From assembly GCA_012519315.1 (NCBI GenBank), contig JAAYQM010000054.1, positions 1 to 50,010 of the forward strand: DNA of 50,010 nucleotides. The letters are read 5' to 3'. Position 1 is the first letter of the stretch. Every line of letters starts with the position of its first letter. Both the position numbers and the translations under genes were made by a program. Under the pieces are notes generated by a model. That model was given only the letters and a program-made list of their open reading frames with translations. It had not been told where the DNA came from and ran no database searches. Source of the stretch: Clostridiales bacterium. GTDB taxonomy: Bacteria; Bacillota; Clostridia; Oscillospirales; CAG-272. Of this stretch, positions 1 through 19,190 are shown one piece after another.

Positions 1-2057
1 ATCGGAGAGGCGGCAATCAGAACATCCGCCCTGCGCTTTAAGGCCTGACAATAGGTAGCTCTCAAAAGGTGCAGCTTTGTCTCCCTTGCCTTCTGCGTTC
101 TGTAATGCAAGAGGCTTGTGGTAAAAGAAACATCGGCCTCGTATAAAAGCCGCAAATCGGCAAATCGATTGCTCACTGCCCCTACCCTGTGCCCCGACTG
201 CTTTAATGTCTCGATCAAGGATAATTTCCCCTGCGAATCAAGACCGGCATATAAATCACATTCAGGGACAGCCTGACAAAGAGAGTCCCTGCCCAGAGCT
301 GCCGAATACACATTTGTATCTATATCCTCTTTTTTTCGGATGCCGCATCCAATGGCAAGACGTGTAAGATCTGCCGCACTCCCGTCGTGAAGCATAATGG
401 TGCGCATCCCCATTCGGCGGCAATATTCAATAAAGTCAAAAGCGCCTTCATTTAAATGCTCCCGCTGCGCAATTAAACCGACAAAGCACATCTCCCTTTG
501 AACCGCACCGATTCGCCGCAGATTATTGTAAATTGTTTTCGAGCGGGCAACGGCATACACCTGACACCCTTCCTCATACAGATCTTTCCCGATCTGTAAA
601 ATTTCCCTTAAAACCGATGCATCTAAGGACTTCTCAATCTTCCAGTCACAATAGGTTGTACAGCGCCCCAGTATCTCGGCAGGTTCTCCCCGGACTATTG
701 CAGTATGCCCTTCCTCATCAGACGTCAACACCGTATCAAACAGGGAGCCATGACCCCGACCGCACCTCTCAAGCAGGGGAAAATCCCCCGCCAGGGCAGA
801 AAGATCGATACGAGCCTCCTCTGCAACAGAAAGAAGAGCCTCCCCGTCCGTAAAATCCCCTGTGTTTTGCGCAAGGCTGCTGCGCCCGTGCAGAGCTCCC
901 GATACCACAAGGGCGTTCTTCAACAAATCAATCCCGCAGGAATTATCCTTTATCCCCCGCCCCAAATCGGGCTGCCTGTACAGCTTTCCGCCTGTATAAA
1001 GGGCGGTTATCTCAAGTCGTGACGGATCATAAATACTGCCGCTGTCTATTATAATGCAATCCAGAAGGCTGAGCTTTTCGATTTTTGAAATGTTTTTTAT
1101 AATTGCTCCGCCGCTGCCCTCTTTAGATATCAGAGCGGCACCTGCCAGCCCGCGGGCAAGGATAATATATCCCAAAGCCCAGAGCAACTCACTCATCGAA
1201 GCAACGGCAAGGCAAAGAGCGGTTAGAAAAACATCAAAGAGCTCCCCGCCTCGTAATGAAAGCACAAGATCGAGCAAGGTGATTACAAAAACCAGGGCAA
1301 TAGCAGCTAAACCCTGAATTCTGCAATACTTCTTCACCTGCCGCAATAGGGGAAACTCACTGTGAGATTCAAGGGGGATCGGACCCTTCTTCATGTAAAT
1401 CCGGGTATCCTCTCCGGTAGCGACAACAATCGCCCGCCCGCTGCCTCCCACTACCGTAGATGAGGCAAAAACCATATTGCTCTGTTCGGACAGCCCCCGA
1501 CGAGCATCAAAGAGGTTTTCTGCATTTTTATGTACGGGCGTGCCTCCTCCGCAGAGATCGGCCTCAACCACCATTAGGTTCTCCGCCGAAACAATCCTTG
1601 CGTCACAGACAACAACATCCCCCTCACGCAGAAAAATAACATCTCCGCATACGATAGAACGGCTGTCTATCAGTACAAGCCGACCCTCCCGCAACACACA
1701 CATCTCAGGAATCGAATAAGTGTAAATCGCAGAAAAAATCTGCTGAGATTTTACATATGTCAGTGCCGTCAGGACAAAATTTATCAACCATACCGAAAGA
1801 ATCACCGCCGCGGTTTGCCGATACTCAAAAATCCAGGCAACCCCAACGGTAAGGAGCAGAAGCAAAGAGGTAAAATCGAATGCGATTTTACCTATATAGC
1901 TGCGTGTTTTCGATTGGGGAATCTGATAAAGAGCGTTTGGTCCATCCTTGCGCAAACGAATACGAGCCGCCTTTCGAGTAAGCCCGACGGCGGCATTCGT
2001 TTTCAATATTTTTTCTATCTCTTCCGGAGTTTTAGTATACCAGGCATCGTTCATCAT
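1..2057 (-). CDS. P-type cation ATPase-like pseudoenzyme (partial, C-terminus off window)
   Basis: The minus strand is open without a stop from an ATG at 2057 (or 2054) to base 1, about 685 codons; I translated it by hand. The fold matches P2-type (Ca2+-like) ATPases: N-terminal cation-ATPase domain, M1/M2 near residues 65-110, actuator domain with GDVIFLREGD, M3/M4 near 245-300, then P and N domains with the nucleotide-domain signature RGEP. Every catalytic motif is altered: TGES reads CGGG (about residues 169-172), PEGL in M4 reads SELL (289-292), DKTGT reads DSGSI (338-342), TGD reads HDG (557-559) and the GDGVND hinge reads SNRFAD (629-634). Ion pumping by the usual phospho-cycle therefore looks impossible. 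The frame is not decayed, so a regulatory or scaffold role is inferred. It starts 9 bases after the ClpE-type gene stop and probably shares its transcript. The last transmembrane helices lie outside the window. Confidence 0.85.
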   Translation of the reverse strand, partial: MMNDAWYTKTPEEIEKILKTNAAVGLTRKAARIRLRKDGPNALYQIPQSKTRSYIGKIAFDFTSLLLLLTVGVAWIFEYRQTAAVILSVWLINFVLTALTYVKSQQIFSAIYTYSIPEMCVLREGRLVLIDSRSIVCGDVIFLREGDVVVCDARIVSAENLMVVEADLCGGGTPVHKNAENLFDARRGLSEQSNMVFASSTVVGGSGRAIVVATGEDTRIYMKKGPIPLESHSEFPLLRQVKKYCRIQGLAAIALVFVITLLDLVLSLRGGELFDVFLTALCLAVASMSELLWALGYIILARGLAGAALISKEGSGGAIIKNISKIEKLSLLDCIIIDSGSIYDPSRLEITALYTGGKLYRQPDLGRGIKDNSCGIDLLKNALVVSGALHGRSSLAQNTGDFTDGEALLSVAEEARIDLSALAGDFPLLERCGRGHGSLFDTVLTSDEEGHTAIVRGEPAEILGRCTTYCDWKIEKSLDASVLREILQIGKDLYEEGCQVYAVARSKTIYNNLRRIGAVQREMCFVGLIAQREHLNEGAFDFIEYCRRMGMRTIMLHDGSAADLTRLAIGCGIRKKEDIDTNVYSAALGRDSLCQAVPECDLYAGLDSQGKLSLIETLKQSGHRVGAVSNRFADLRLLYEADVSFTTSLLHYRTQKARETKLHLLRATYCQALKRRADVLIAASP

Positions 2058-2066
2058 CTTTAATCT

Positions 2067-4325
2067 TTATGCGGTAACTATTTTCAGCGCATTGTCCGAA
2101 ACAAGCAGGGTAAAATCATTAATCGGATTCTCATAACTGGTGATAATGATTTGCGCCAGCTGGTCTTCGACATTAACCTGAATATATCTGCGCATATTCC
2201 TTGCCCCATATTTCACCGAATAAGAGTCGGCGGCAATTTTCGCTGCCGCTTCCGGAGTAAAGCTGAAGGTAATCCCCTTTTCGCTAAGAACCTCGGCAAG
2301 CTGCCTCAGCATCAAAGAGGCAATAGCCTTAAAATCTTCGGTATCAAGTGTTCTGAAGGTGATAATCTCATCGACCCGATTGATAAATTCAGGGCGGAGA
2401 AACTCGCTAAGCGCGCGCTCGGTTTTTTCCTTTTGCTGCAGATCAACGCTTTCGGAAAAGCCGGAAATCGCCGCCCCCTTTTGTGAGCCTGCGTTAGTTG
2501 TCATAACAATGAGAGTGTTCTCAAAATTAACCTGCTTGCCCCTTGCATCGGTAATCTTGCCATCATCAAGAATCTGAAGTAAAATATTCAACACATCGGG
2601 ATGAGCCTTTTCAATTTCGTCAAAAAGAATAACCGAATAGGGACGCCGTCTGATTTTTTCGGTAAGCTGTCCCGCCTCGTCATAGCCGACATAGCCGGGA
2701 GGCGCGCCGATAATGCGTGAGACCGAATGCTTCTCCATAAACTCAGACATATCAAGCCTGATAAGCGTTTCCGGCGAATCAAAGAGATCCTCGGAGAGCA
2801 CCTTTACAAGCTCGGTTTTCCCAACACCTGTGGGACCGGCAAATATAAAGGATACCGGCTTGCGCTTATATGATACGCCGGCACGGTTACGGCGAATAGC
2901 CCGGGCAACAGCGTTAACCGCCTCGTCCTGTCCGATAATACGCTCTTTTAGCCGTTCCTCCAGCCCATTGAGACGTTCAAATTCGTTTTCGTTAATCGAT
3001 GAAGCAGGAATCCCCGTCCAAATCTCAATAACATAGGCGAGATCGGCATGAGTAAGCTCAACCGCCCGTGCTTTCGGCTCAATTTCGGACAAGGTCTGGT
3101 TTATTTGCAGCTCCTTGACCTTGATATCGGCAAGCTGTCGATATTTCAACTCCTGCTCACCGGGGGTAGAATCAGGCATATTGTCGCTGGCCTCTTTTTC
3201 AGCCTTGAGCTGCATTAGCTCGCGGCGGAGACGATAAACCTCGTTTATTTCCTTTGTGGAGAGGGACAAATGCGCAGCCGCCTCATCCAGCAAATCGATC
3301 GCCTTATCGGGCAGGTACCTGTCGGTTATATAACGCTCAGATAAAAGAACTGCCGAGCGAAGCACATTGTCCGGTATGCGGATACCGTGAAAATCCTCAT
3401 AATACTGCTTGATACCCCGCAGCATCTCTATGCATTCGGCAATTGACGGCTCATTCACCATCACAGGCTGGAAGCGACGCTCAAGCGCCGAGTCCTTTTC
3501 GATATATTTGCGGTACTCATTCAAGGTTGTCGCACCGATCACCTGAATCTCCCCGCGAGACAAGGCCGGCTTCATGATGCTGGCGGCATTCATGCTGCCC
3601 TCTGCATCTCCGGCACCTACTATATTATGAACCTCGTCAATGACAAGAATAATATTGCCCGCTTCCTTAACCTCGGAAAGAAGCCCCAGAATCCTTGTCT
3701 CAAATTGACCTCTGAACTGGGTACCCGCCACAAGAGCGGCCAGGTCAACAAGGTAAATTTCCTTGCCCTGCAGCTTATAGGGCACATTGCCTGAGACAAT
3801 CCTCTGAGCTAATGCTTCTGCGATAGCCGTTTTTCCGACGCCGGGCTCACCCAGAAGGCAGGGGTTGTTTTTCTGACGGCGACATAGGATCTGAATAATG
3901 CGCGATAGCTCACGCTCCCGCCCGACAATGCGGTCCAGCTGCCCCTCGGCTGCCATATGTGTAATATTCTTACAATATGTCGATAAGAACTTGCGCTTTG
4001 GCTTCTGTTGCTGCGTTTCCCGCTCGCTCTTCTGCCAGCTTTTTGAGGAGCCCATAAGACCGCTCTCCCGAATCAATTTTGAAAAATCGATAGCCGGGGC
4101 GCCGCCCTCCTCATTATCCTCCTCAGGGGCAGCAAGGATTATACCCATAAAATTTTCCATGTCGGTATTCAACCGGTCAAAATCGGACTCGGTCAATCCC
4201 ATTTTATCAAGTATATCGTTAACGGGCTTTATGCCAAGATCCTTTGCGCATTTCAGACACAAACCCTCATTGCGTGTAATAAACAAAACTGCCACTCTTT
4301 TTTTGCATTTGGCACACATTTGCAT
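2067..4325 (-). CDS. ClpE-type ATP-dependent Clp protease ATPase subunit
   Basis: A 752-residue Hsp100/Clp AAA+ unfoldase that would thread proteins into ClpP. The N-terminus carries a four-cysteine zinc finger (Cys4, Cys7, Cys23, Cys26) in place of the ClpC N-domain, which is the hallmark of ClpE. AAA-1 has Walker A GEPGVGKT at 159-166 and Walker B IILVIDE at 225-231. A helical middle domain follows at about 360-420. AAA-2 has Walker A GPTGVGKT at 497-504 and Walker B VILFDE at 565-570. A ClpP-docking loop is expected near 620; SGF there only loosely fits the usual [LIVMP]-G-[FL]. The protein is slightly longer than typical ClpE because of an acidic, low-complexity stretch at about 65-110. 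A sigma-A-type promoter lies upstream, and the ribosome-binding GGAG sits in a hairpin. The pseudo-P-type ATPase is immediately downstream. ClpC is the alternative name. Confidence 0.93.
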   Translation of the reverse strand: MQMCAKCKKRVAVLFITRNEGLCLKCAKDLGIKPVNDILDKMGLTESDFDRLNTDMENFMGIILAAPEEDNEEGGAPAIDFSKLIRESGLMGSSKSWQKSERETQQQKPKRKFLSTYCKNITHMAAEGQLDRIVGRERELSRIIQILCRRQKNNPCLLGEPGVGKTAIAEALAQRIVSGNVPYKLQGKEIYLVDLAALVAGTQFRGQFETRILGLLSEVKEAGNIILVIDEVHNIVGAGDAEGSMNAASIMKPALSRGEIQVIGATTLNEYRKYIEKDSALERRFQPVMVNEPSIAECIEMLRGIKQYYEDFHGIRIPDNVLRSAVLLSERYITDRYLPDKAIDLLDEAAAHLSLSTKEINEVYRLRRELMQLKAEKEASDNMPDSTPGEQELKYRQLADIKVKELQINQTLSEIEPKARAVELTHADLAYVIEIWTGIPASSINENEFERLNGLEERLKERIIGQDEAVNAVARAIRRNRAGVSYKRKPVSFIFAGPTGVGKTELVKVLSEDLFDSPETLIRLDMSEFMEKHSVSRIIGAPPGYVGYDEAGQLTEKIRRRPYSVILFDEIEKAHPDVLNILLQILDDGKITDARGKQVNFENTLIVMTTNAGSQKGAAISGFSESVDLQQKEKTERALSEFLRPEFINRVDEIITFRTLDTEDFKAIASLMLRQLAEVLSEKGITFSFTPEAAAKIAADSYSVKYGARNMRRYIQVNVEDQLAQIIITSYENPINDFTLLVSDNALKIVTA

Positions 4326-4388: not shown

Positions 4389-4417
4389 ATATTAAATTAA
4401 AAATCTATCACTGTCAA
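4389..4417 (-). promoter_or_regulatory. sigma-A promoter of the ClpE-type operon
   Basis: On the minus strand TTGACA (4412-4417) is separated by 17 bases from TAATAT (4389-4394). This gives a leader of about 55-60 bases before the ATG at 4325. Confidence 0.65.
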
Positions 4418-4444: not shown

Positions 4445-5029
4445 CTAAATTGACTCCTTTTTTTCTACACAAGCATCTAAATCGGTAATCTTCTTCCCTT
4501 TTGCTTTTACATATTCAATATAGTAATTCACCACAGCCATAATCGCAACAGCAATGGTTACAAGACTGATTAATTGAATAGATGTCTTACTCAAATGCTC
4601 ATGAAACAATATAATCACAAAAATCGCCGCATAGAAAACACAAACGGCCATCTTACCCCACCATTTGCTGACCGCAATGACGCTGCGGCGTTTGAAAACA
4701 AAAAGCGCCCCTAACAGCATCAAAAATTCCTTTGCGATATAGATGACGGGCAGCCAGACAGGGATAAGACCTTTTACAGCAAGGCTGATCAAGACAACAC
4801 ACTGCATTAATTTATCGGCAAGGGGATCAAGTATCTTCCCGATATTTGAAGTCCAAGCAAATCGGCGAGCAAGATAACCGTCCAGCACATCGGTCAAGCC
4901 TGCAGTTATAAATATACTTAAGGCTAACAGGAGGTTATTAGGATGGTCCGAAAAAAATGCTGCAACAAATGCCCCAACCATGACTATGCGAAGAGCGGAA
5001 AGAATATTCGGTATGAAATGCAAACTCAT
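4445..5029 (-). CDS. pgsA: CDP-diacylglycerol--glycerol-3-phosphate 3-phosphatidyltransferase
   Basis: Catalyses formation of phosphatidylglycerol phosphate, the committed step to phosphatidylglycerol and cardiolipin, in the cytoplasmic membrane. The CDP-alcohol phosphotransferase signature D-x2-D-G-x2-A-R-x8-G-x3-D-x3-D is complete (Asp47, Asp50, Gly51, Ala54, Arg55, Gly64, Asp68, Asp72), and several hydrophobic helices follow. Length is 194 residues, normal for PgsA. I chose the ATG at 5029 because GGAGG lies seven bases before it; an in-frame ATG at 5050 has no such site. The gene follows the cvpA-like gene on the same strand with a 107-base gap, so it may be in the same transcript. Confidence 0.92.
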   Translation of the reverse strand: MSLHFIPNILSALRIVMVGAFVAAFFSDHPNNLLLALSIFITAGLTDVLDGYLARRFAWTSNIGKILDPLADKLMQCVVLISLAVKGLIPVWLPVIYIAKEFLMLLGALFVFKRRSVIAVSKWWGKMAVCVFYAAIFVIILFHEHLSKTSIQLISLVTIAVAIMAVVNYYIEYVKAKGKKITDLDACVEKKESI

Positions 5030-5136
5030 AATAGCCTCCATGTTTTTCAACTTCGGTGCCGATTGACTTTTCCTTAATTTGTAAATTTTTTGTTAAATTA
5101 ACTTATTCAGAGACTTTATTATATCCTTACACCATT

Positions 5137-5850
5137 TTATTTAAAAAAGATACTTCTCAGAAGGTTGTTTTCATTGAAAAACTTCAGTAATACTGAATTG
5201 TCGAGAATTGCCGAGCCGAAAATATCCGGCTCAATCGCGCTTAATGCGTTAATTCCGAAAACCGCGATTATTGAAAAGAGCCAGGCATAAAGGAGGGCAC
5301 ACACAATGCCGAACAGAACGCCGAGCAGCTTGTTTGCCGTGCGCAGGACGGGCAGCTTGAAGATCAAGTCAACGACTGCACTTACAATCCAAAGTATAAT
5401 CAGCGCACCAAAAAATATACTCGCATATCCCAGCACATTTGATATTGTGCGGGCAACAGGGTCGGCAACAGTTACGGCAAGCTCATCTATCTTCGCCGCA
5501 GTCGCCTCGGTAAAGGAGCCATAGCTAGCCTTTAGCTGCTCAAGGTCCCCCCCGTATCTTTCGATCATTTCGGTAAAGGTTTGATCCCCGAAAACCGCAG
5601 ACATATCCACAGTTTCCTTCCCGACGGGAATAAAGCCGGAGACAAACTGCCTTATCTTTTCCGAGACAGAGGAAATGATAAATTTATCGTAATACCATGC
5701 CGACAGGGACGGCGAATAAGTATTGGCCACAATTATAGCCACAATCAGTGAAACAAAGCTCATCACCGACTTAATAAATCCACGGCGAGCACCCTTGAAT
5801 ATTGTAAATGCTATAATGGCAATAAGCGCTATATCGAAAATAAAGCTCAT
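5137..5850 (-). CDS. CvpA family membrane protein
   Basis: A 237-residue integral membrane protein of the CvpA family (colicin V production/uncharacterised in Firmicutes). The N-terminus has the typical start FDIALIAIIAFTIFKGARRG followed by a second helix (about 25-45). After a soluble loop of about 80 residues come two more helices near 140-165 and 185-210. The biochemical role is not known; CvpA homologues are linked to envelope functions. The ATG at 5850 is preceded by AAGGG at nine bases; a GTG at 5859 would sit on top of that site. It lies between the DUF5711 gene and pgsA on the same strand. Confidence 0.85.
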   Translation of the reverse strand: MSFIFDIALIAIIAFTIFKGARRGFIKSVMSFVSLIVAIIVANTYSPSLSAWYYDKFIISSVSEKIRQFVSGFIPVGKETVDMSAVFGDQTFTEMIERYGGDLEQLKASYGSFTEATAAKIDELAVTVADPVARTISNVLGYASIFFGALIILWIVSAVVDLIFKLPVLRTANKLLGVLFGIVCALLYAWLFSIIAVFGINALSAIEPDIFGSAILDNSVLLKFFNENNLLRSIFFK

Positions 5851-5968
5851 AACAAGCACCCTTATTGATCGCTCTCGCCTATAACGATCAACATCTCCTT
5901 ATTTGAATATTACCGATTCTGTCAAAGTAAAAAGGGGTAGATTTGCCGCATCAGATTAAGCAATATAA

Positions 5969-7213
5969 TCAGGACTCCGGCCTTATTGTTTGTGTCCACC
6001 CTGAATAGCAGAGCAAGAATGTTTTTTCATCGTAGACCAAGAGGCGTTGCGCCCCGCTTTCCACTTTAGTGGTTGATACTGTGCCGTCTGCAGAGGAGAT
6101 CCGAATGACCTCGGTATCGGTAAGCATATAAACATAATCGCCCCAAAATTTGAGATCTACACAATTATCACCAATAATATTATTATATCTTATATTTCCT
6201 TTAGTGTCAAATATAACTGCACTGTTTTCGCCGCCGACAATATTTTTATTAAAGATAGCAACAACGCCCGATTCTCCGATATCAGCACTGATAAGGGACA
6301 TCGAACCATAGTCATATGTAGATACATTCTGCCCCTCATTATCGAAAAACCGAAGGGCGCTGTCCCCCACCGCACAAAAGCCCGAATCACCGAAATAACC
6401 GGCCTTTAGGGGGAACTCTCCCCGGTATTCAACCTTATATTTCTCGGCAGGCTCAAAGGGCGTATAACCGGAAATTTCGGTTACATAGTCCCCCCCGTCG
6501 GCATAAAAGGAGAGAAGGAGAAGCTCGCGTCCGTCCCTTTTCAATGCAAGGTCGATCACATACTTATCCTTTAGATATTTTCCGATAAGATCAAATTTAT
6601 TATTGTAGAGAAAGACGGCGGATCTATGCTCGAGAGTTTGAGTAAGCACCGCAAAGGTTCCGTCATCCGCCATTACCGCCCCGCTAATGGGATAGTCAAG
6701 AGATTGTCTGTACAATTCGGTAAGCAAATTGTAAACGGCAAACTGATATCCGCCAAAATCATAGACAAGCAAATATTTATCCGAGCTAACGAGAACCGGC
6801 TTGCTGCCTAAAAAGGCTTTGGAAAAAAGCTGACGTCCGGACGCCTTATAAACGGTCACCCGGGACTCACCCGCAATGGAAAGGTTGCCCCTGAAAATCG
6901 CAAAGCTGCGGTTCCCGTCGGCATCATATCGAATAGTACCTATAACTTCTCCCGTATCCGACCTTGCCGCCTCATCGAGATCACGCAAAAGATAGCGCAG
7001 ATTGTTGTATGTGATATTGTCTCTGTAAAATGTGACCGTCATTAGTATAAATATGATCAGCAAAAGCAGAGTCAACAATTTCAGCAGCTTAAAACGGACC
7101 GAAACCATGTGATAATACCTGTTGACCGGACTGCTCTCCTGACTCGGCTGAACGGGAAGAGACGGGTCCGGCGGACTTTTCGGGCCGGCTGTCATCAGGT
7201 TTTTTTGACGCAT
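5969..7213 (-). CDS. DUF5711 family protein (membrane-anchored, beta-propeller-like)
   Basis: A 414-residue protein with a proline-rich cytoplasmic N-terminus, one transmembrane segment (about residues 46-64) and a large extracytoplasmic part of repeating beta-strand units such as KYLLVYDFGG and GEVIGTIRYD, consistent with a propeller. This matches DUF5711, a clostridial family without a known function. The ATG at 7213 has a strong GGGAGGGG site six bases upstream, whereas the upstream in-frame ATG at 7267 lacks one. It sits between truA and the cvpA-like gene; the gap to truA is about 125 bases. No enzymatic motif is visible. Confidence 0.8.
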   Translation of the reverse strand: MRQKNLMTAGPKSPPDPSLPVQPSQESSPVNRYYHMVSVRFKLLKLLTLLLLIIFILMTVTFYRDNITYNNLRYLLRDLDEAARSDTGEVIGTIRYDADGNRSFAIFRGNLSIAGESRVTVYKASGRQLFSKAFLGSKPVLVSSDKYLLVYDFGGYQFAVYNLLTELYRQSLDYPISGAVMADDGTFAVLTQTLEHRSAVFLYNNKFDLIGKYLKDKYVIDLALKRDGRELLLLSFYADGGDYVTEISGYTPFEPAEKYKVEYRGEFPLKAGYFGDSGFCAVGDSALRFFDNEGQNVSTYDYGSMSLISADIGESGVVAIFNKNIVGGENSAVIFDTKGNIRYNNIIGDNCVDLKFWGDYVYMLTDTEVIRISSADGTVSTTKVESGAQRLLVYDEKTFLLCYSGWTQTIRPES

Positions 7214-7339
7214 GATCCCCTCCCCGATCGATGTGTTTGATCTGCTTGATGTGTTAAGATTCTGCATCGACCTGTTTTATTTTAATCTGAATTAAGAAAT
7301 GCTTCAAGGATTTCTATATAGACAAAAAGTTAAAATTTT

Positions 7340-8113
7340 TTATACAAATTCTATATTTTTATAAACAACCCTGTTTAAATACAATCCACACGCAGGAGCC
7401 GTAAAGCCTGCCTTTTTTCTATCCTTGCTCTCAGTGATAAGGGGAATCGCCTCAGGAGATATTTTCCCGCGTGAGACGTCAAGCAGGGTTCCTGCAATAA
7501 TGCGGACCATGTTGTATAAAAAGCCGTCTGCCGCGATGCGTATGGTAACGAGATCCCCCGCCCTTTCAACATTACAGTATTTAACCGTTCTTGTGGTGGA
7601 CAGCACCGAGGATCCCTCGGCCATATATGCGCGAAAATCCTGCCTACCCACAAGATACTGCGCCGCCTTGTTCATATCCTTCAAACGATTATCGTCGATT
7701 TTAAACGGGTAGTGGGCAGCCAATTTGTACAAAAAAGGGTCCCGCTCCGACCGGTTCCAGATTTTATAGAGATATTCTTTATATTCGGCATCATAGCGCG
7801 GGTGAAAATCATCCCCTACCGCCATAGAATCCATAACGGCAATATCCTTTGGCAAAAAAACATTCATCGCACGGGCTACCCGCTCTACCGGAATAGCCGG
7901 TATATTCGTCTCGTCATGAGGGCGAAGAGTCGCATAAAAGGCGTTGGCATGAACGCCGCTGTCGGTGCGGCTGCATCCCGTAATATCACAGGGGGTGCAG
8001 TACAGCGCCTGTGCCGCATTGCAGAGCACCGACTGAACGGAGACCCCGTTCTTCTGCACCTGAAATCCGCAATAGGCCGTACCGATAAATCGTATCTTTA
8101 GCAACAGCTTCAT
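7340..8113 (-). CDS. truA: tRNA pseudouridine(38-40) synthase TruA
   Basis: Converts uridines 38, 39 and 40 in the tRNA anticodon arm to pseudouridine. The catalytic motif SRTDSGVHA includes Asp51, and the C-terminal FLYNMVRIIAGTLLDVSRG block is typical of the family. At 257 residues it has normal length. GGAG precedes the ATG by seven bases. It lies directly downstream of ecfT, the usual Firmicutes order ecfA1-ecfA2-ecfT-truA, so co-transcription with the vitamin transporter module is likely. Confidence 0.95.
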   Translation of the reverse strand: MKLLLKIRFIGTAYCGFQVQKNGVSVQSVLCNAAQALYCTPCDITGCSRTDSGVHANAFYATLRPHDETNIPAIPVERVARAMNVFLPKDIAVMDSMAVGDDFHPRYDAEYKEYLYKIWNRSERDPFLYKLAAHYPFKIDDNRLKDMNKAAQYLVGRQDFRAYMAEGSSVLSTTRTVKYCNVERAGDLVTIRIAADGFLYNMVRIIAGTLLDVSRGKISPEAIPLITESKDRKKAGFTAPACGLYLNRVVYKNIEFV

Positions 8114-13012: not shown

Positions 13013-15883
13013 ATGCATTCCGATATCTCTAACAATGTTTCAACACATAAAAAAGATAAAATGCCACCCGCAGCCAAAACAAGACTCAGAAAATCCTTCA
13101 ATCTTCGCCGCACCCTTGAGGAAAGCGAATATACCTATCTGGGATGGGCATTTTTTCTCCCCTTCGCTATGATGCTGCTTATATATATAGCTATGCAGGT
13201 CTACCCCTTTGGCCGCAGCTCTGTCCTTGTTCTCGACCTTAACGGACAGTATGTCTACTTTTTCGAAGCGCTGCGCGACTTTGTCTATGGAGAAAACAGC
13301 CTGCTTTATTCCTTCGGACGGGCGCTTGGCGGTGAGTTTATGGGCATTTATGCCTACTATATTGCAAGCCCCCTCTCATATATCGTAGCCCTTTTCCCCA
13401 AAAGCATGATCCTTGAAGCCCTTTTTCTGATGTTCCTCATTAAGTGCGGTCTTTCAGGACTTACCTTCGGCTACTATATCCACAAAACACGCAGAGCGAG
13501 CAAATCGGCAACCATTCTCTTCTCATTAATGTACGCCCTCTCTGCCTATGCAATCATCCAGCAGCACAACACCATGTGGATCGACAACCTTATTCTCCTT
13601 CCCCTCATCACCTACGGACTTGAGCAGCTTATTACCAACAAAAAGTACAAGCTCTTCACCCTCTCCTTGGCCCTTGCCATCTTCAGCAACTTCTATATAG
13701 GCTACATGAGCTGTCTTTATGTGGGCATTTATTTCTTCTACTATTATTTCATGACCAAACGAAGCACCGGAGAGGATACCTTCGTTGATCTGAAAAATTT
13801 TGCAAAGGCGCTTCTCCGCGTCCTTATCTTCTCGGCCATTGCCGTGGGCATGGCGGCGGTTATTCTTTTTTCCACCTATTATTCGCTGCAATTCGGGAAA
13901 ATGGAGTTTTCCACCCCGAACTTCTCCCTTTTCCAAAAATTTGACTTCTTAGACCTGTTTACAAAATTCTTCCCCGGCTCTTATGATACAGTTCGTCCCG
14001 AAGGCTGGCCTTTCGTTTATTGCGGCGTTTTGGCCATCATTCTTCTTCCCATCTATTTTATATCCAAACACATATCAAAACGCGAAAAAATCGCCTCCGG
14101 GATTCTTCTTCTCGTCTTTCTCCTCAGCTTTTCAATTAACACCTTTGATATGATCTGGCACGGATTCCAACGGCCGAATTGGCTCAACTATCGCTACAGC
14201 TATATGCTCTGCTTTTTAATCCTGGTCTTTTCCTTCAGAGTTTTTGAGCGGATTCAGGAAATCAACACAAAGGCGGTATTTGCCGTTTGCGGCATTATAG
14301 GCTCCCTGCTTTTGGTTGTGCAGAAGCTTGATTATAAAAATATGCCCGACCTTGAGGCTATATGGGTTTCCCTCATCTGCATCGTCACCTATGCAATTGC
14401 CATTTCCTGCGCAAAAAAAACCCTGTTCCTTGAAAACACCACAATGATTATAACCGTGCTTGTCTGCCTCGAGATGGTCTGCGCCGGCGTAACCGGACTT
14501 GTGGCTCTTGACAAGGATGTTGTCATTTCCTCTTACTACTCCTACCACGATTTTATGAATAAATTCCAGCCTCTTATCGACCGGGTTAAGGACAGCGACG
14601 ACAGCTTCTATCGAATGGAAAAAACCGAACATCGCAAGGTAAACGATCCCTTTGCTCTCGGTTACAGAGGACTCTCCAACTCCACCTCCACCCTTAACTC
14701 CGATACAATCCTGTTCTTGCAAAATATGGGGCTTTGTTCAAAATCTCACTGGTCCCAATACACCGGCGGCACACCGGTGTCGGACAGCCTTTTTGCCCTG
14801 AAATATCTCATCGCTAACTCAAGTCAGGAAATTCCTCTGTATGAGCCTATCGATTCTGAGGGCAATTATATTGCCTACAAAAATCCGTATGCCCTCCCCC
14901 TTGCCTTCGGCGTCAACGGAAAATACAAGGACGTCCGTTTTGTGGCACCCAAAAACGAGGACGGAACAGAGGATCCGAACTTTGTAAAATATCATTCTCC
15001 CTTTGAGCGAATGAACGCCATCATCACCGCCATGCTCGGCAGTGATGAAAAGGTTCAGCTCTTTGTCCCCATCAACTATGATGACCGCACCTACAACAAC
15101 ATTGATTTCGGCTATGCTTCCGAACACGATAAATACTCCCCCACAAGCGAAAAGGGGTCGGCAAGCGTAAACTATCACTTCACCGCGAAAAACGATTATC
15201 CGATTTACTGCTACTTCCCCTCCCTTTATCCGCGTGAGGTTTCCCTGTCCCTCAACGGTATTTCCATCGGACGTTTCTTCGGCAACGATTCCTTTTGCAT
15301 AAAAAGTCTTGGTTCCTTCAGCGAAGGAGAGAAAATAAACCTGAATCTCAAGCTGGAAAGCGACTCCCTTTATATTAAGAACCAGCAATATTATTTCTAT
15401 TATCTTGACGAAGCTCTCTTTGTCGAGGTGATGGAATCCCTTGCTGAGTGCGGATATGAGATAGAGCGCTTCACCGAGGATCATTTTATCGGAACCATTT
15501 CGGTAAAAGAAGGACGGGAGACAATCTACACCTCCATCCCCTTCGATCAGGGTTGGATCGTTAAGGTAGACGGCAAGATCGTGGACACCTTCGAAGCTCT
15601 GGACGCCCTTCTAGCATTTGACGTTGAACCGGGAGAGCACACCCTTGAGCTACGCTATATGCCCGGTGCTTTTGTCAAGGGGGTCATAACCACACTTGCA
15701 TCCATACTCATTTTCATTCTTATCGTGATTGGGGAATACCTCATCCGCCGTCGCAGAAGCAAGGTCGTAGTTGCTGAGTCAACCGCCCAGCTTGCAGACA
15801 ATCCGGACATCATCCCGGACGCTGAAATTTTCGGCGAGATAATAGCCACCGAAAACAACAGCGATATAGAAAATAACAAGTAA
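13013..15883 (+). CDS. YfhO family polytopic membrane protein
   Basis: A 956-residue protein of the YfhO family. After a cationic N-terminus, about a dozen hydrophobic helices span residues 45-500, including motifs shared by YfhO such as LDLNGQYVYFFE and NYRYSYMLCF. A large extracytoplasmic domain at about 510-890 ends with the GWIVKVDGK/LELRYMPGAFVKG block, followed by one last helix (about 890-915) and an acidic tail. B. subtilis YfhO takes part in glycosylation of lipoteichoic acid; the substrate here is unknown. The gene sits between DUF951 and ruvA (15-base gap to ruvA), so it is presumably co-transcribed. Several long ORFs antisense to it are shadows. Confidence 0.9.
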   Translation: MHSDISNNVSTHKKDKMPPAAKTRLRKSFNLRRTLEESEYTYLGWAFFLPFAMMLLIYIAMQVYPFGRSSVLVLDLNGQYVYFFEALRDFVYGENSLLYSFGRALGGEFMGIYAYYIASPLSYIVALFPKSMILEALFLMFLIKCGLSGLTFGYYIHKTRRASKSATILFSLMYALSAYAIIQQHNTMWIDNLILLPLITYGLEQLITNKKYKLFTLSLALAIFSNFYIGYMSCLYVGIYFFYYYFMTKRSTGEDTFVDLKNFAKALLRVLIFSAIAVGMAAVILFSTYYSLQFGKMEFSTPNFSLFQKFDFLDLFTKFFPGSYDTVRPEGWPFVYCGVLAIILLPIYFISKHISKREKIASGILLLVFLLSFSINTFDMIWHGFQRPNWLNYRYSYMLCFLILVFSFRVFERIQEINTKAVFAVCGIIGSLLLVVQKLDYKNMPDLEAIWVSLICIVTYAIAISCAKKTLFLENTTMIITVLVCLEMVCAGVTGLVALDKDVVISSYYSYHDFMNKFQPLIDRVKDSDDSFYRMEKTEHRKVNDPFALGYRGLSNSTSTLNSDTILFLQNMGLCSKSHWSQYTGGTPVSDSLFALKYLIANSSQEIPLYEPIDSEGNYIAYKNPYALPLAFGVNGKYKDVRFVAPKNEDGTEDPNFVKYHSPFERMNAIITAMLGSDEKVQLFVPINYDDRTYNNIDFGYASEHDKYSPTSEKGSASVNYHFTAKNDYPIYCYFPSLYPREVSLSLNGISIGRFFGNDSFCIKSLGSFSEGEKINLNLKLESDSLYIKNQQYYFYYLDEALFVEVMESLAECGYEIERFTEDHFIGTISVKEGRETIYTSIPFDQGWIVKVDGKIVDTFEALDALLAFDVEPGEHTLELRYMPGAFVKGVITTLASILIFILIVIGEYLIRRRRSKVVVAESTAQLADNPDIIPDAEIFGEIIATENNSDIENNK

Positions 15884-15898
15884 CAAAGGAATATTAAT

Positions 15899-16531
15899 AT
15901 GCTATATCATGTGACAGGAACACTTTGCCACCGGGAACCGGGCATGGCCGTTATCGACTGCGGAGGCGTCGGATATAAATTGACCGTCAGCGACTACACC
16001 GCCGCCGCAATCGATGCGGAAAAAGAGGCAGGAAAAGAATCGAATCCTAAAATACGGCTGTTTACCCACATGGTTGTGCGGGAGGATAGTATCGAGCTGT
16101 TTGGCTTTTTCACTTCCGCCGAGCTGTCGGCTTTTAAAATGCTTACCTCGGTATCAAGCGTCGGTCCCAAGGTTGCCATGTCCCTCCTGTCCACCATGTC
16201 GCCTGAAAACCTTGCCCTTGCTATCTGCACCGAAAATACAAAGCAGCTGTCAAAGGCGCCCGGTATCGGCGCAAAGACAGCCGCCCGTATTGTGCTTGAG
16301 CTGAAGGATAAGATCTCCCGAAACACATCGGGCCTTAATATGCCTGAAAGCCTACCCAGTATTGATACACAGGGGGCTCATCGTGGCAAGCTGACCGAGG
16401 CGCAGGACGCCCTTTCCGTTCTCGGCTATGACAGAACGGAAATCGCCGCCGCTCTCAGGGGCATCGATATTGCCTCCCTTGAGCTTGAGGAGATCATTCG
16501 CACCGCCCTGAAAAAGTTTGTCAAAGACTAG
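15899..16531 (+). CDS. ruvA: Holliday junction branch migration protein RuvA
   Basis: Binds four-way junctions as a tetramer and loads RuvB. The 210 residues contain the N-terminal OB-fold (MLYHVTGTLCHR to about 65), the tandem helix-hairpin-helix region (FKMLTSVSSVGPKVAMSLLS and LSKAPGIGAKTAARIVLELKD) and the C-terminal RuvB-contact domain (from about 160). AAAGGAA lies before the ATG. It lies 15 bases after yfhO and 65 bases before ruvB. Confidence 0.96.
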   Translation: MLYHVTGTLCHREPGMAVIDCGGVGYKLTVSDYTAAAIDAEKEAGKESNPKIRLFTHMVVREDSIELFGFFTSAELSAFKMLTSVSSVGPKVAMSLLSTMSPENLALAICTENTKQLSKAPGIGAKTAARIVLELKDKISRNTSGLNMPESLPSIDTQGAHRGKLTEAQDALSVLGYDRTEIAAALRGIDIASLELEEIIRTALKKFVKD

Positions 16532-16596
16532 ACCCTTTTATGCAAATACAAATAGCAAGAGGTTAACAGATTAATATATAAAGATAGGATAATAAT

Positions 16597-17652
16597 ATGT
16601 ACGATGGCGAGTTCGACTTTGAAAACCGGATAGTATCCTCCAGCCACACCCCGGAGGATCATGAGATTGACAACAGTCTCCGTCCAAAAACGCTGGATGA
16701 CTATATCGGACAAAGCAAAGTAAAGGAAATTCTAAAAATCTATATCGATGCTGTCAAAATCAGAGGGGATACCCTTGATCACGTACTGCTCTACGGACCG
16801 CCCGGTCTCGGAAAAACCACCCTCTCAAACATTATTGCCGCCGAGCTTGGGGTCAACATACGCACAACCTCCGGTCCCGCCATTGAAAAGCAAGGGGATC
16901 TCGCCGCTCTTTTAACCAATCTCAGCGACGGGGATGTGCTCTTCATCGATGAAATCCACCGCCTTTCCCGCGCGATCGAAGAGATTCTCTATCCCGCAAT
17001 GGAGGACTACGCCCTTGATATTATCATTGGCAAGGGACCCTCCGCGCGCAGCATCCGGCTCCCGCTGCCAAACTTTACCCTTATTGGCGCAACAACCCGG
17101 GCAGGACAGCTGACAACCCCTCTCCGCGACCGATTTGGCGTCATTCTTAAGCTTGAGCTTTATACTCCTGAGGAATTGAGCGTCATCGTCAAGCGCAGCG
17201 CCGGCATTTTAAACGTGGGCATAAACGAGGAGGGCGCCTATGAAATCGCCTCCCGCTCCAGAGGCACCCCCCGTATCGCCAACCGCCTGCTTAAGCGCAT
17301 CAGGGATTTTGCAACGGTTAAGGGAGACGGAACCATCACCAACGAAATTGCCCGTATGGCACTGAATATGCTGGAAATCGACGCCCTTGGGCTTGATAAC
17401 ACCGACCGTGGCATGCTTGAAGCTATCATCAACTATTATGACGGCGGACCTGTGGGGCTGGATACCCTTGCCGCCACCGTCGGGGAGGAGGCCATCACCC
17501 TGGAGGACGTCTACGAACCGTATCTTATGCAAATCGGATTCCTCGGCCGTACTCCTCGCGGTCGCTGTGTCACCCGCCTTGCCTACGAGCATCTCGGTAT
17601 AAAGTATCCCGAAAAGAAAAACGACGATCAGATTAATCTTTTTGATGACTAA
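16597..17652 (+). CDS. ruvB: Holliday junction branch migration DNA helicase RuvB
   Basis: AAA+ motor that drives branch migration. It has Walker A GPPGLGKT (residues 67-74), Walker [11 protein letters not shown], sensor motif GATTRAG and the arginine-finger region TPLRDRFG; the C-terminal winged helix ends with [13 protein letters not shown]. Length 351 is normal. The ATG at 16597 follows AGGATA. The gene ends the plus-strand run; a hairpin cluster and a terminator follow. Confidence 0.97.
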
Positions 17653-17710
17653 GTGTATATACGCAATATGTCGCAAATTTTTTAAAACTGCCGAAAATCT
17701 AAACAGCAAA

Positions 17711-17773
17711 GGAAAAACCGGAATGCGTATCCTTTCATATCGCATTCCGCAAAAAAGCAATCCCGGCTTTTCC
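17711..17773. repeat. overlapping inverted repeats downstream of ruvB
   Basis: An inner nine-base inverted repeat CGGAATGCG / CGCATTCCG (17719-17727 and 17741-17749) overlaps an outer imperfect repeat GGAAAAACCGG / CCGGCTTTTCC (17711-17721 and 17763-17773). Both use the same CGG bases, so only one can form fully. It sits directly before the terminator at 17780. Confidence 0.45.
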
Positions 17774-17779
17774 TCTACT

Positions 17780-17811
17780 AAAAAACGCATGGAATCGTCA
17801 TGCGTTTTTTT
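17780..17811. terminator. rho-independent terminator after ruvB
   Basis: AAAAACGCATG and CATGCGTTTTT close a seven-base loop, with a seven-T run on the plus strand. The A-rich left arm would also let it act on the other strand. Confidence 0.85.
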
Positions 17812-17945
17812 GGAACATTCATGAGATTATCACGTCTAATATATTAAATAATGTTCAATAATAACTGTAAGATACACTTCTGATACGTAGAGATGCCATT
17901 TCTCACGCTGCTCGAAAAGCTGTGAGAACAAGAAAGGAAGATTCT

Positions 17946-19190
17946 ATGAAAAGACAAATCCTCTCTCTTATATGTGTAGGTGCGATTCTCCTATCCCTCG
18001 CCGGATGCATGAACCTTCGCGCTTCAGAAAACCTCACCGAGGGGCTTATTGCAAAGCAGGTCGACACAACAGAGGCAAAGACCGGGGAAGGCGCAAGAGA
18101 GGCCTCCGTTTTTGCCATGAAACTCCTCTCCCTTGCCCTCGAATCCGGGGATGAAAATGTGGTTATTTCACCCCTATCCGCTTATTTAGCCCTTGCCATG
18201 GTGGCAAACGGCGCAAAAGGGGACACCCTCTCCGAGTTTACAAAAAGACTCGGCAGCGATCTCAATATCAGCGACATCAATCTCTTTTGCCGTGCGATTA
18301 TTGACAGTCTCACCGAGAATGCAGGGGGCACCACACTCAGCATTGCCGATTCTGTTTGGATGAAGAAAGACGGGTTTGTCCCAAATCAGGATTTCCTTCA
18401 AGCGGCTGTAGATTATTTTGATGCCGAGGCCTTCACATCGGATTTTAGTGATCTAAAGGCTGTCAGCGATGTGAACAAGTGGATCGAAAAGAACACAAAC
18501 GGTCTTATCAAGGAGATGCTCAAGGAAATCTCTCCCGATACCGTTATGCTGCTGATTAACACCTTATATATGAAGGCTCGCTGGAAAACCCCCTTTGAAA
18601 GCGCATATAACTTCAAGGGCCCCTTTACAAAATCGGACGGCACAGAAGTCGAGACCACCTATATGTCCCGTACCGACAGAATGCAATATCTTAAAACCGA
18701 CGCGGCTAAGGGGGTTCTTCTCCCCTATGACGACGAGCGTCTTGGCTTTGTCGCCCTCCTGCCCGAGGACGGAAAAACCACCGCCGATCTCCTTGCCTCC
18801 ATCTCTGACATAAAGGGGCTGATCGACAGCGCGGAAAGCGCCTCAATCCGGCTCAGTCTCCCGATATATAAAATCGAGTACGAATGTACAATGAATGATA
18901 TCCTGAAGTCCGCCGGGATAAAGCTGGCCTTTGACGAACAGAAGGCAGATCTCTCCGGTCTCGGTACGGCAATGGGCAATCTTTATATAGGAGAGGTTCG
19001 GCAAAAGGTTGTCATCGAGGTTAACGAAAAAGGAACAGAGGCCGCTGCCGCAACTGTTATTGACATTCGCACCACCTCCGCGATCCAGAGCGATTTTGCG
19101 CTCACCTTTGATAAGCCCTTTATCTACATGGTGGTGGATCTTGAAAGCGGTATCCCCCTCTTCGTCGGGCAGATGGATAACCCGGCATAA
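17946..19190 (+). CDS. serpin family lipoprotein (predicted inhibitory)
   Basis: A 414-residue serpin anchored outside the cell. Residues 1-21 form a lipoprotein signal peptide with lipobox LAGC (Cys21). The serpin core follows, with NTLYMKARWKTPF (shutter/breach region) and the hinge GTEAAAAT (363-370), whose small residues indicate an inhibitory, loop-inserting serpin. By alignment to alpha-1-antitrypsin the reactive bond would be near Thr377-Ser378; the segment after it is about three residues longer than usual, so this is approximate. Gut clostridial serpins (for example siropins of Eubacterium siraeum) inhibit neutrophil-type elastases; the same role is a guess here. The ATG at 17946 follows AAAGGAAG. 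Flanked by terminators on both sides, so it is a single-gene unit. Confidence 0.93.
   Translation: MKRQILSLICVGAILLSLAGCMNLRASENLTEGLIAKQVDTTEAKTGEGAREASVFAMKLLSLALESGDENVVISPLSAYLALAMVANGAKGDTLSEFTKRLGSDLNISDINLFCRAIIDSLTENAGGTTLSIADSVWMKKDGFVPNQDFLQAAVDYFDAEAFTSDFSDLKAVSDVNKWIEKNTNGLIKEMLKEISPDTVMLLINTLYMKARWKTPFESAYNFKGPFTKSDGTEVETTYMSRTDRMQYLKTDAAKGVLLPYDDERLGFVALLPEDGKTTADLLASISDIKGLIDSAESASIRLSLPIYKIEYECTMNDILKSAGIKLAFDEQKADLSGLGTAMGNLYIGEVRQKVVIEVNEKGTEAAAATVIDIRTTSAIQSDFALTFDKPFIYMVVDLESGIPLFVGQMDNPA

Follow-up and report, generated by a model that had tools for sequence, protein, structure and literature searches.

P2A-type Ca2+-ATPases, such as Listeria LMCA1, SPCA1 and SERCA, have the domain order, N-terminal domain, A/P/N fold and C-terminal membrane domain in common with the bacterial proteins described here. 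In contrast to these pumps, the bacterial family lacks the catalytic motifs, carries Arg or Lys in place of the M5 Glu, has lost the M4 Pro and stands in fixed linkage to clpE. The nearest precedent for such a pseudo-ATPase is human TMEM94, also called ERMA. The first-pass annotation of this DNA knew of no described P-type ATPase with all motifs lost, but TMEM94 shows this kind of loss (PMC12134183, PMC13322241). According to the first study, TMEM94 has no TGES and no ATPase activity was found; no nucleotide was seen in the maps, yet micromolar AMPPCP binding was measured (PMC12134183). In the second, GDGVND is replaced by GSSANL and DKTGT by DKQGI, and Mg2+ transport is defended (PMC13322241). 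The likeness to the bacterial family lies in a P-type-like fold, the absence of TGES and the replacement of GDGVND, whereas TMEM94 is a eukaryotic ER protein that retains DK (DKQGI) and the M4 prolines and has no known AAA+ partner. The bacterial proteins are nearer to P2A pumps, have lost the Asp in most members and are linked to clpE. TMEM94 was not among the best 60 PDB matches.

The second gene of the locus resembles ClpE of Firmicutes in its four-cysteine N-terminal motif, two AAA+ modules and GF loop, but belongs to a subtype with its own conserved residues and with a membrane-protein gene behind it. Derlin is a membrane protein that is related to an enzyme and catalytically dead. Its pairing with p97 in ERAD retrotranslocation (PMC10575581) offers a functional analogy only, namely a dead enzyme-like membrane protein together with an AAA+ unfoldase, and the folds are unrelated. 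The open-access literature searched, which leaves out most subscription journals, yielded no family of catalytically dead P-type ATPases from bacteria, and papers naming both ClpE and P-type ATPases showed no connection between them in titles or abstracts.

The clpE/pseudo-ATPase locus

The window, a stretch of 50,010 nucleotides, opens with a 685-residue frame that is a homologue of P2A-type (Ca2+-pump-like) ATPases (Table 1). The gene had been called intact, which is right for the open frame but not for the gene, because base 1 of the window is the end of contig G000:C21 and the gene is cut there by the assembly. The 3' end, whose recovery had been recommended, was largely found: the last 211 codons lie at the start of another contig of the same genome (G000:C8:2-637), without overlap between the two pieces and with about 20-25 codons absent between them. 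A Pfam profile search, also recommended, matched E1-E2_ATPase and Cation_ATPase_N, whereas the catalytic hydrolase domain and the nucleotide domain were only weakly recognisable. The best NCBIfam match of the window protein was the PMR1-type Ca2+ ATPase, far under its cut-off.

Table 1. Positions of the features of the locus within the window.
Feature	Position	Strand	Remark
P2A-type pseudo-ATPase, first 685 codons	3..2057	-	ATG start, open frame runs off the window
SNRFAD replacing GDGVND, residues 629-634	156..173	-	motif alignment
HDG replacing TGD, residues 557-559	381..389	-	motif alignment
DSGSI replacing DKTGT, residues 338-342	1032..1046	-	motif alignment
E1-E2_ATPase region (A domain and M3-M4), residues 118-307	1137..1706	-	Pfam E=4e-26
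SELL replacing PEGL in M4, residues 289-292	1182..1193	-	motif alignment
CGGG replacing TGES, residues 169-172	1542..1553	-	motif alignment
Cation_ATPase_N domain, residues 6-71	1845..2042	-	Pfam E=5e-8
9-base spacer, clpE stop to pseudo-ATPase start	2058..2066	-	
clpE-type AAA+ unfoldase, 752 aa, both Walker A motifs intact	2067..4325	-	
Gly-Phe (residues 622-623) of presumed ClpP-binding loop	2457..2462	-	invariant in 17 ClpE
ClpE N-terminal four-cysteine motif, C4, C7, C23, C26	4248..4316	-	invariant in 17 ClpE
Promoter-like site TTGACA-17-TAATAT before clpE	4389..4417	-	weak evidence
CDP-alcohol phosphatidyltransferase, CvpA-like, DUF5711, TruA-type pseudouridine synthase	4445..8113	-	same direction, upstream

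The spacing of 9 bases that the first-pass annotation gave between the two genes was reproduced. The upstream gene meets the criteria for ClpE, an N-terminal CX2C...CX2C motif and two AAA+ modules. We take its Gly-Phe pair to be the ClpP loop, and the window's genome contains a clpP gene, plus one other large ClpE relative. Binding of ClpP by the window ClpE is presumed from the invariant GF loop and the presence of clpP, without binding data. Neither a CtsR box nor a CIRCE box was found in front of the window clpE.

Four further P-type ATPases are encoded in the window's genome, all with canonical motifs, and one of them is P2-type. They lend some weight to the idea that the pseudo-ATPase regulates a working P-type pump or acts as its decoy subunit, for example via mixed dimers, and pseudoenzymes often regulate active relatives. 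However, it is the sole Cation_ATPase_C match in seven g26/g34 genomes, four of them at least 92% complete, and the gene to which it is linked is clpE and not one for a pump. We consider this role quite unlikely. The regulation of a real pump, as earlier suggested, is disfavoured for a P2-type pump because the pseudo-ATPase is the only P2-type ATPase in the g26 and g34 genomes, although P1-type pumps are not excluded as targets.

Catalytic motifs, ion site and fold

The five altered motifs of the window copy align as they had first been read (Table 1). Every catalytic motif had been described as replaced; all are indeed altered, but D338, the acceptor Asp within DSGSI, is still present, as is E290, the ion-ligand Glu of M4, and the helix-breaking Pro of M4 is lost. 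The motif loss is beyond chance, because it is common to dozens of orthologues, and close pairs of these are under strong purifying selection. In an alignment of 73 family rows, one of which is a fragment of a canonical pump, none carries the full catalytic set, and the top scorer is the canonical-pump fragment. The phospho-acceptor position is Pro in 44 rows and Asp in 5, and the Glu of TGES, the Gly of TGD and the Asp of GDGVND are mostly absent. Canonical pumps have 190 invariant columns; type-A members have lost 109 of these and have 56 columns conserved to at least 80% (41 in common with canonical pumps and 15 new). The DDN before M5 has become GG in the family, and the new conserved residues include G702, G703, Tyr727, Arg735 and Gly759 (L120 numbering). 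A conserved Arg at the KGA position of the N domain is kept. In terms of the P-type ATPase superfamily, the fold criterion is met by the P-type fold and the domains E1-E2_ATPase and Cation_ATPase_N, and the enzyme criteria are not, with the phosphorylation motif DKTGT absent and TGES, TGD and GDGxND absent as well. A DKTG string in L087 was rejected as a catalytic site, being located at residue 656, away from that site.

The cation site of P2A pumps (M4 PEGL, M5 N..E, M6 N..TD) is not met either. The M4 Glu is kept in 61 rows and the M6 Asp in 65, and the others are replaced: the M5 position equivalent to Glu771 is Arg in 56 rows and Lys in 8, and the M6 Asn has become Gly. The C8 end of the window gene reads MMQLLRLF (Q..R) in M5 and SGLIFDY (G..D) in M6. 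Across the family the basic residue of M5 occurs together with the Asp of M6, and five sequences with an M6 Asn are all without the basic residue; these form a single lineage in the tree, so that they represent one event, not five. The natural reading, which remains an inference, is an internal salt bridge from M5 Arg or Lys to M6 Asp in place of a bound cation. A metal sensor had been among the roles proposed earlier, but Arg or Lys occupies the position of a ligand Glu, which disfavours sensing through the old ion site.

The same site bears on whether the protein still transports something in a non-standard way, the claim made for human ERMA. The conserved M4 Glu and M6 Asp are compatible with it, and one paper reports Mg2+ uptake for ERMA, which lacks TGES and GDGVND (PMC13322241). 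However, according to the same paper ERMA requires its Asp, D427 (PMC13322241), where most bacterial members have Pro; the M5 Arg or Lys beside the acidic pair probably stands in for the cation, the M4 Pro is lost in the family, and the ERMA claim is itself disputed in PMC12134183. Given the acceptor-site Pro of most members and the basic ion-site residue, a residual transporter is unlikely.

AlphaFold2 models, built from an alignment of family members only, reached pLDDT 84.5 and pTM 0.83 for a full-length member and pLDDT 82.7 and pTM 0.76 for the window protein. Foldseek gave the highest TM scores for nucleotide-free E1 states of SERCA and Na,K-ATPase, with E2 states mostly lower (the full-length member had TM 0.77 to SERCA with phospholamban, and the window protein TM 0.72 to several E1 states). 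An E1-like conformation is only weakly supported by these predicted models, because no canonical control was run under AlphaFold and E1 may be the AlphaFold default. Among the best 60 PDB matches, the closest solved sequences are LMCA1 (4e-140) and SPCA1 (1e-121), and these matches meet the criterion for a P2A origin, a position within or next to P2A. The tree separates a clade of 57 members from one of 23 canonical P2 pumps, the former beside, not inside, the P2 rows used; the branches are long and call for caution.

Distribution, linkage to clpE and selection

Searching relatives with the window protein revealed many genera with a clpE 58-66% identical to that of the window, followed by an altered-motif homologue, typically of 900-1100 residues, and the frames of 99 distinct members are mostly of about 900 codons. 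A first profile built from 17 pseudo-ATPases (threshold E<=1e-140) matched at least 149 of the 395 genomes in the window's family, spread over 41 of its 71 genera. These counts are minimum values, because some divergent members (L089, L090, L102 and L115, 179-375 bits) score beneath canonical pumps. Many genera of the window's family have no high-scoring copy. When this profile was run on 346 genomes from the whole order, the top-scoring canonical pump reached about 454 bits, and among the matches listed, all above about 495 bits belong to the window's family. The named carrier records, labelled Clostridia or Oscillospiraceae, are all metagenome bins, and most of these come from gut samples of animals.

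A second, more distant type, likewise behind clpE, was found in another family, and a second profile matched 31 genomes, all there. L184, L188 and L189 are genuine members from this second family. In a class-wide search of 343 genomes with this profile, the strong matches examined were all canonical pumps; L181 and L183, which had appeared as motif-free matches in other families, were rejected as longest-ORF artefacts whose true frames are canonical. Sequences of the second type (L103, L106, L142, L149, L158 and L184) have no basic residue in M5, Asn in M6 and another sequence, such as MCAKGQAFP, at the DKTGT region; they also follow clpE.

Several individual members deserve mention. Genome G011 has two clpE/pseudo-ATPase pairs (L046 on C75 and L053 on C123) with pseudo-ATPases about 70% identical, and duplication and mixed strains could not be told apart. 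Some members (L099, L114, L118, L038 and L039) have roughly 100-300 extra C-terminal residues; no convincing Pfam domain was found in the C-terminal extensions. In L120, a canonical P2 ATPase at 15257-18043 lies tail to tail with the pseudo-ATPase gene.

The clpE gene lies directly upstream on the same strand in 96 of the 99 distinct members, with a median gap of 30 bases, and the remaining three lie so near the edge of a contig that little or no sequence is left upstream. When only members found without the use of clpE are counted, 68 of 71 are directly behind it, and the other three are again at contig ends. The linkage is kept across two bacterial families, as had been proposed for checking. 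Gene order upstream of clpE is largely conserved in relatives, and the genes 5' of it (CvpA-like, DUF5711, TruA, CbiQ/ABC) are conserved with or without the pseudo-ATPase; genes downstream of the pseudo-ATPase vary. In families without a pseudo-ATPase, clpE is often the last of the gene run. The CDP-alcohol phosphatidyltransferase gene before clpE (window 4445-5050) is matched in just some relatives. Judged by profile score, the ClpE subtype appears to track the presence of the partner (at least 1233 bits in 39 ClpE with it, at most 1216 bits in 24 without), but this may reflect only ancestry, because the sequences behind the profile were themselves partner-bearing ClpE. At L097 12317, the gene behind a partner-type ClpE (1354 bits) encodes an Mrp-like ATPase, and the pseudo-ATPase is missing, apparently through loss; ClpE can therefore do without the pseudo-ATPase.

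Selection was estimated by NG86 in six pairs of close orthologues with dS <1. The dN/dS of the pseudo-ATPase was 0.042, 0.042, 0.052, 0.047, 0.089 and 0.115, and that of clpE in the same pairs 0.022-0.058; more distant pairs also gave values <0.2, with dS near saturation. The genomes searched held no second species of the window's genus, so the evidence for purifying selection rests on orthologues and not on the window copy. Within this scope, the values, far under 1, bear out the proposal that selection maintains the protein. The altered motifs, too, proved to be conserved, no orthologue in the two families having the canonical set. Recent decay of a lone copy is rejected by these orthologues and the low dN/dS.

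A functionless decaying or hitch-hiking paralogue, in the operon by chance, could account for the low identity between genera, the shortened members (such as L115, 698 aa) and the losses in some lineages. Against it stand the dN/dS of 0.04-0.12 in close pairs, the mostly ~900-codon frames in 99 members and the new conserved residues. For the family as a whole this explanation is refuted and hardly deserves any weight; it is possible still for single degraded copies.

Possible roles of the pseudo-ATPase

Taken together, these results suggest that a P-type pump fold has been kept under strong selection and re-used for something other than pumping. The non-pumping protein of the first-pass annotation is supported by the altered motifs, the clpE linkage and dN/dS far below 1, with the absence of pumping itself inferred from sequence. 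We give about an even chance to the reading that the pseudo-ATPase is a non-pumping P2A descendant serving ClpE as its partner in the membrane, be it as anchor, adaptor or portal. A descendant of a P2A-type Ca2+-ATPase would have kept the pump fold, lost the phosphorylation chemistry and rebuilt the cation site. As a constitutive membrane partner, it would place ClpE (and ClpP) at the membrane and present or admit membrane-protein substrates, and ClpE would supply the ATP-driven force. The partnership is inferred from gene order alone, without interaction, expression or activity data, and genes of a conserved operon can stay in order even if their products never touch; physical contact and the adaptor or portal role are, like the absence of pumping, inferred. 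The pseudo-ATPases evolve far more quickly than ClpE (about 24-31% identity to the window protein, compared with 60-67% for ClpE), so a varied interface or a variable substrate fits better than a fixed scaffold.

The main rival to the membrane-partner reading is a sensor that responds to a signal in the membrane or the cytosol (lipid, ion, nucleotide or voltage), controls ClpE activity and does not deliver substrates. The same clpE linkage serves it equally, and weak nucleotide binding is conceivable since the N domain keeps the conserved Arg at the KGA position. However, the comparison of conserved columns found no conserved ligand site apart from the structural core, and ClpE has its own four-cysteine N-terminal domain, so we hold the sensor possible but doubtful. 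Equally tentative is a more specific form of the membrane-partner reading, in which, by analogy, the dead P-type ATPase would be the portal of a bacterial membrane-protein extraction device and ClpE(P) would pull substrates out. If this were true, the pair would be an analogue of Derlin-p97 built from unrelated parts.

If the membrane-partner reading is true, a widespread, selected, dead P-type ATPase tied to an AAA+ unfoldase would mean that the pump fold is reusable as a membrane scaffold. It would also set a bacterial case beside the dispute over TMEM94, and offer a way into membrane-protein quality control of uncultured gut Clostridia that can be tested.
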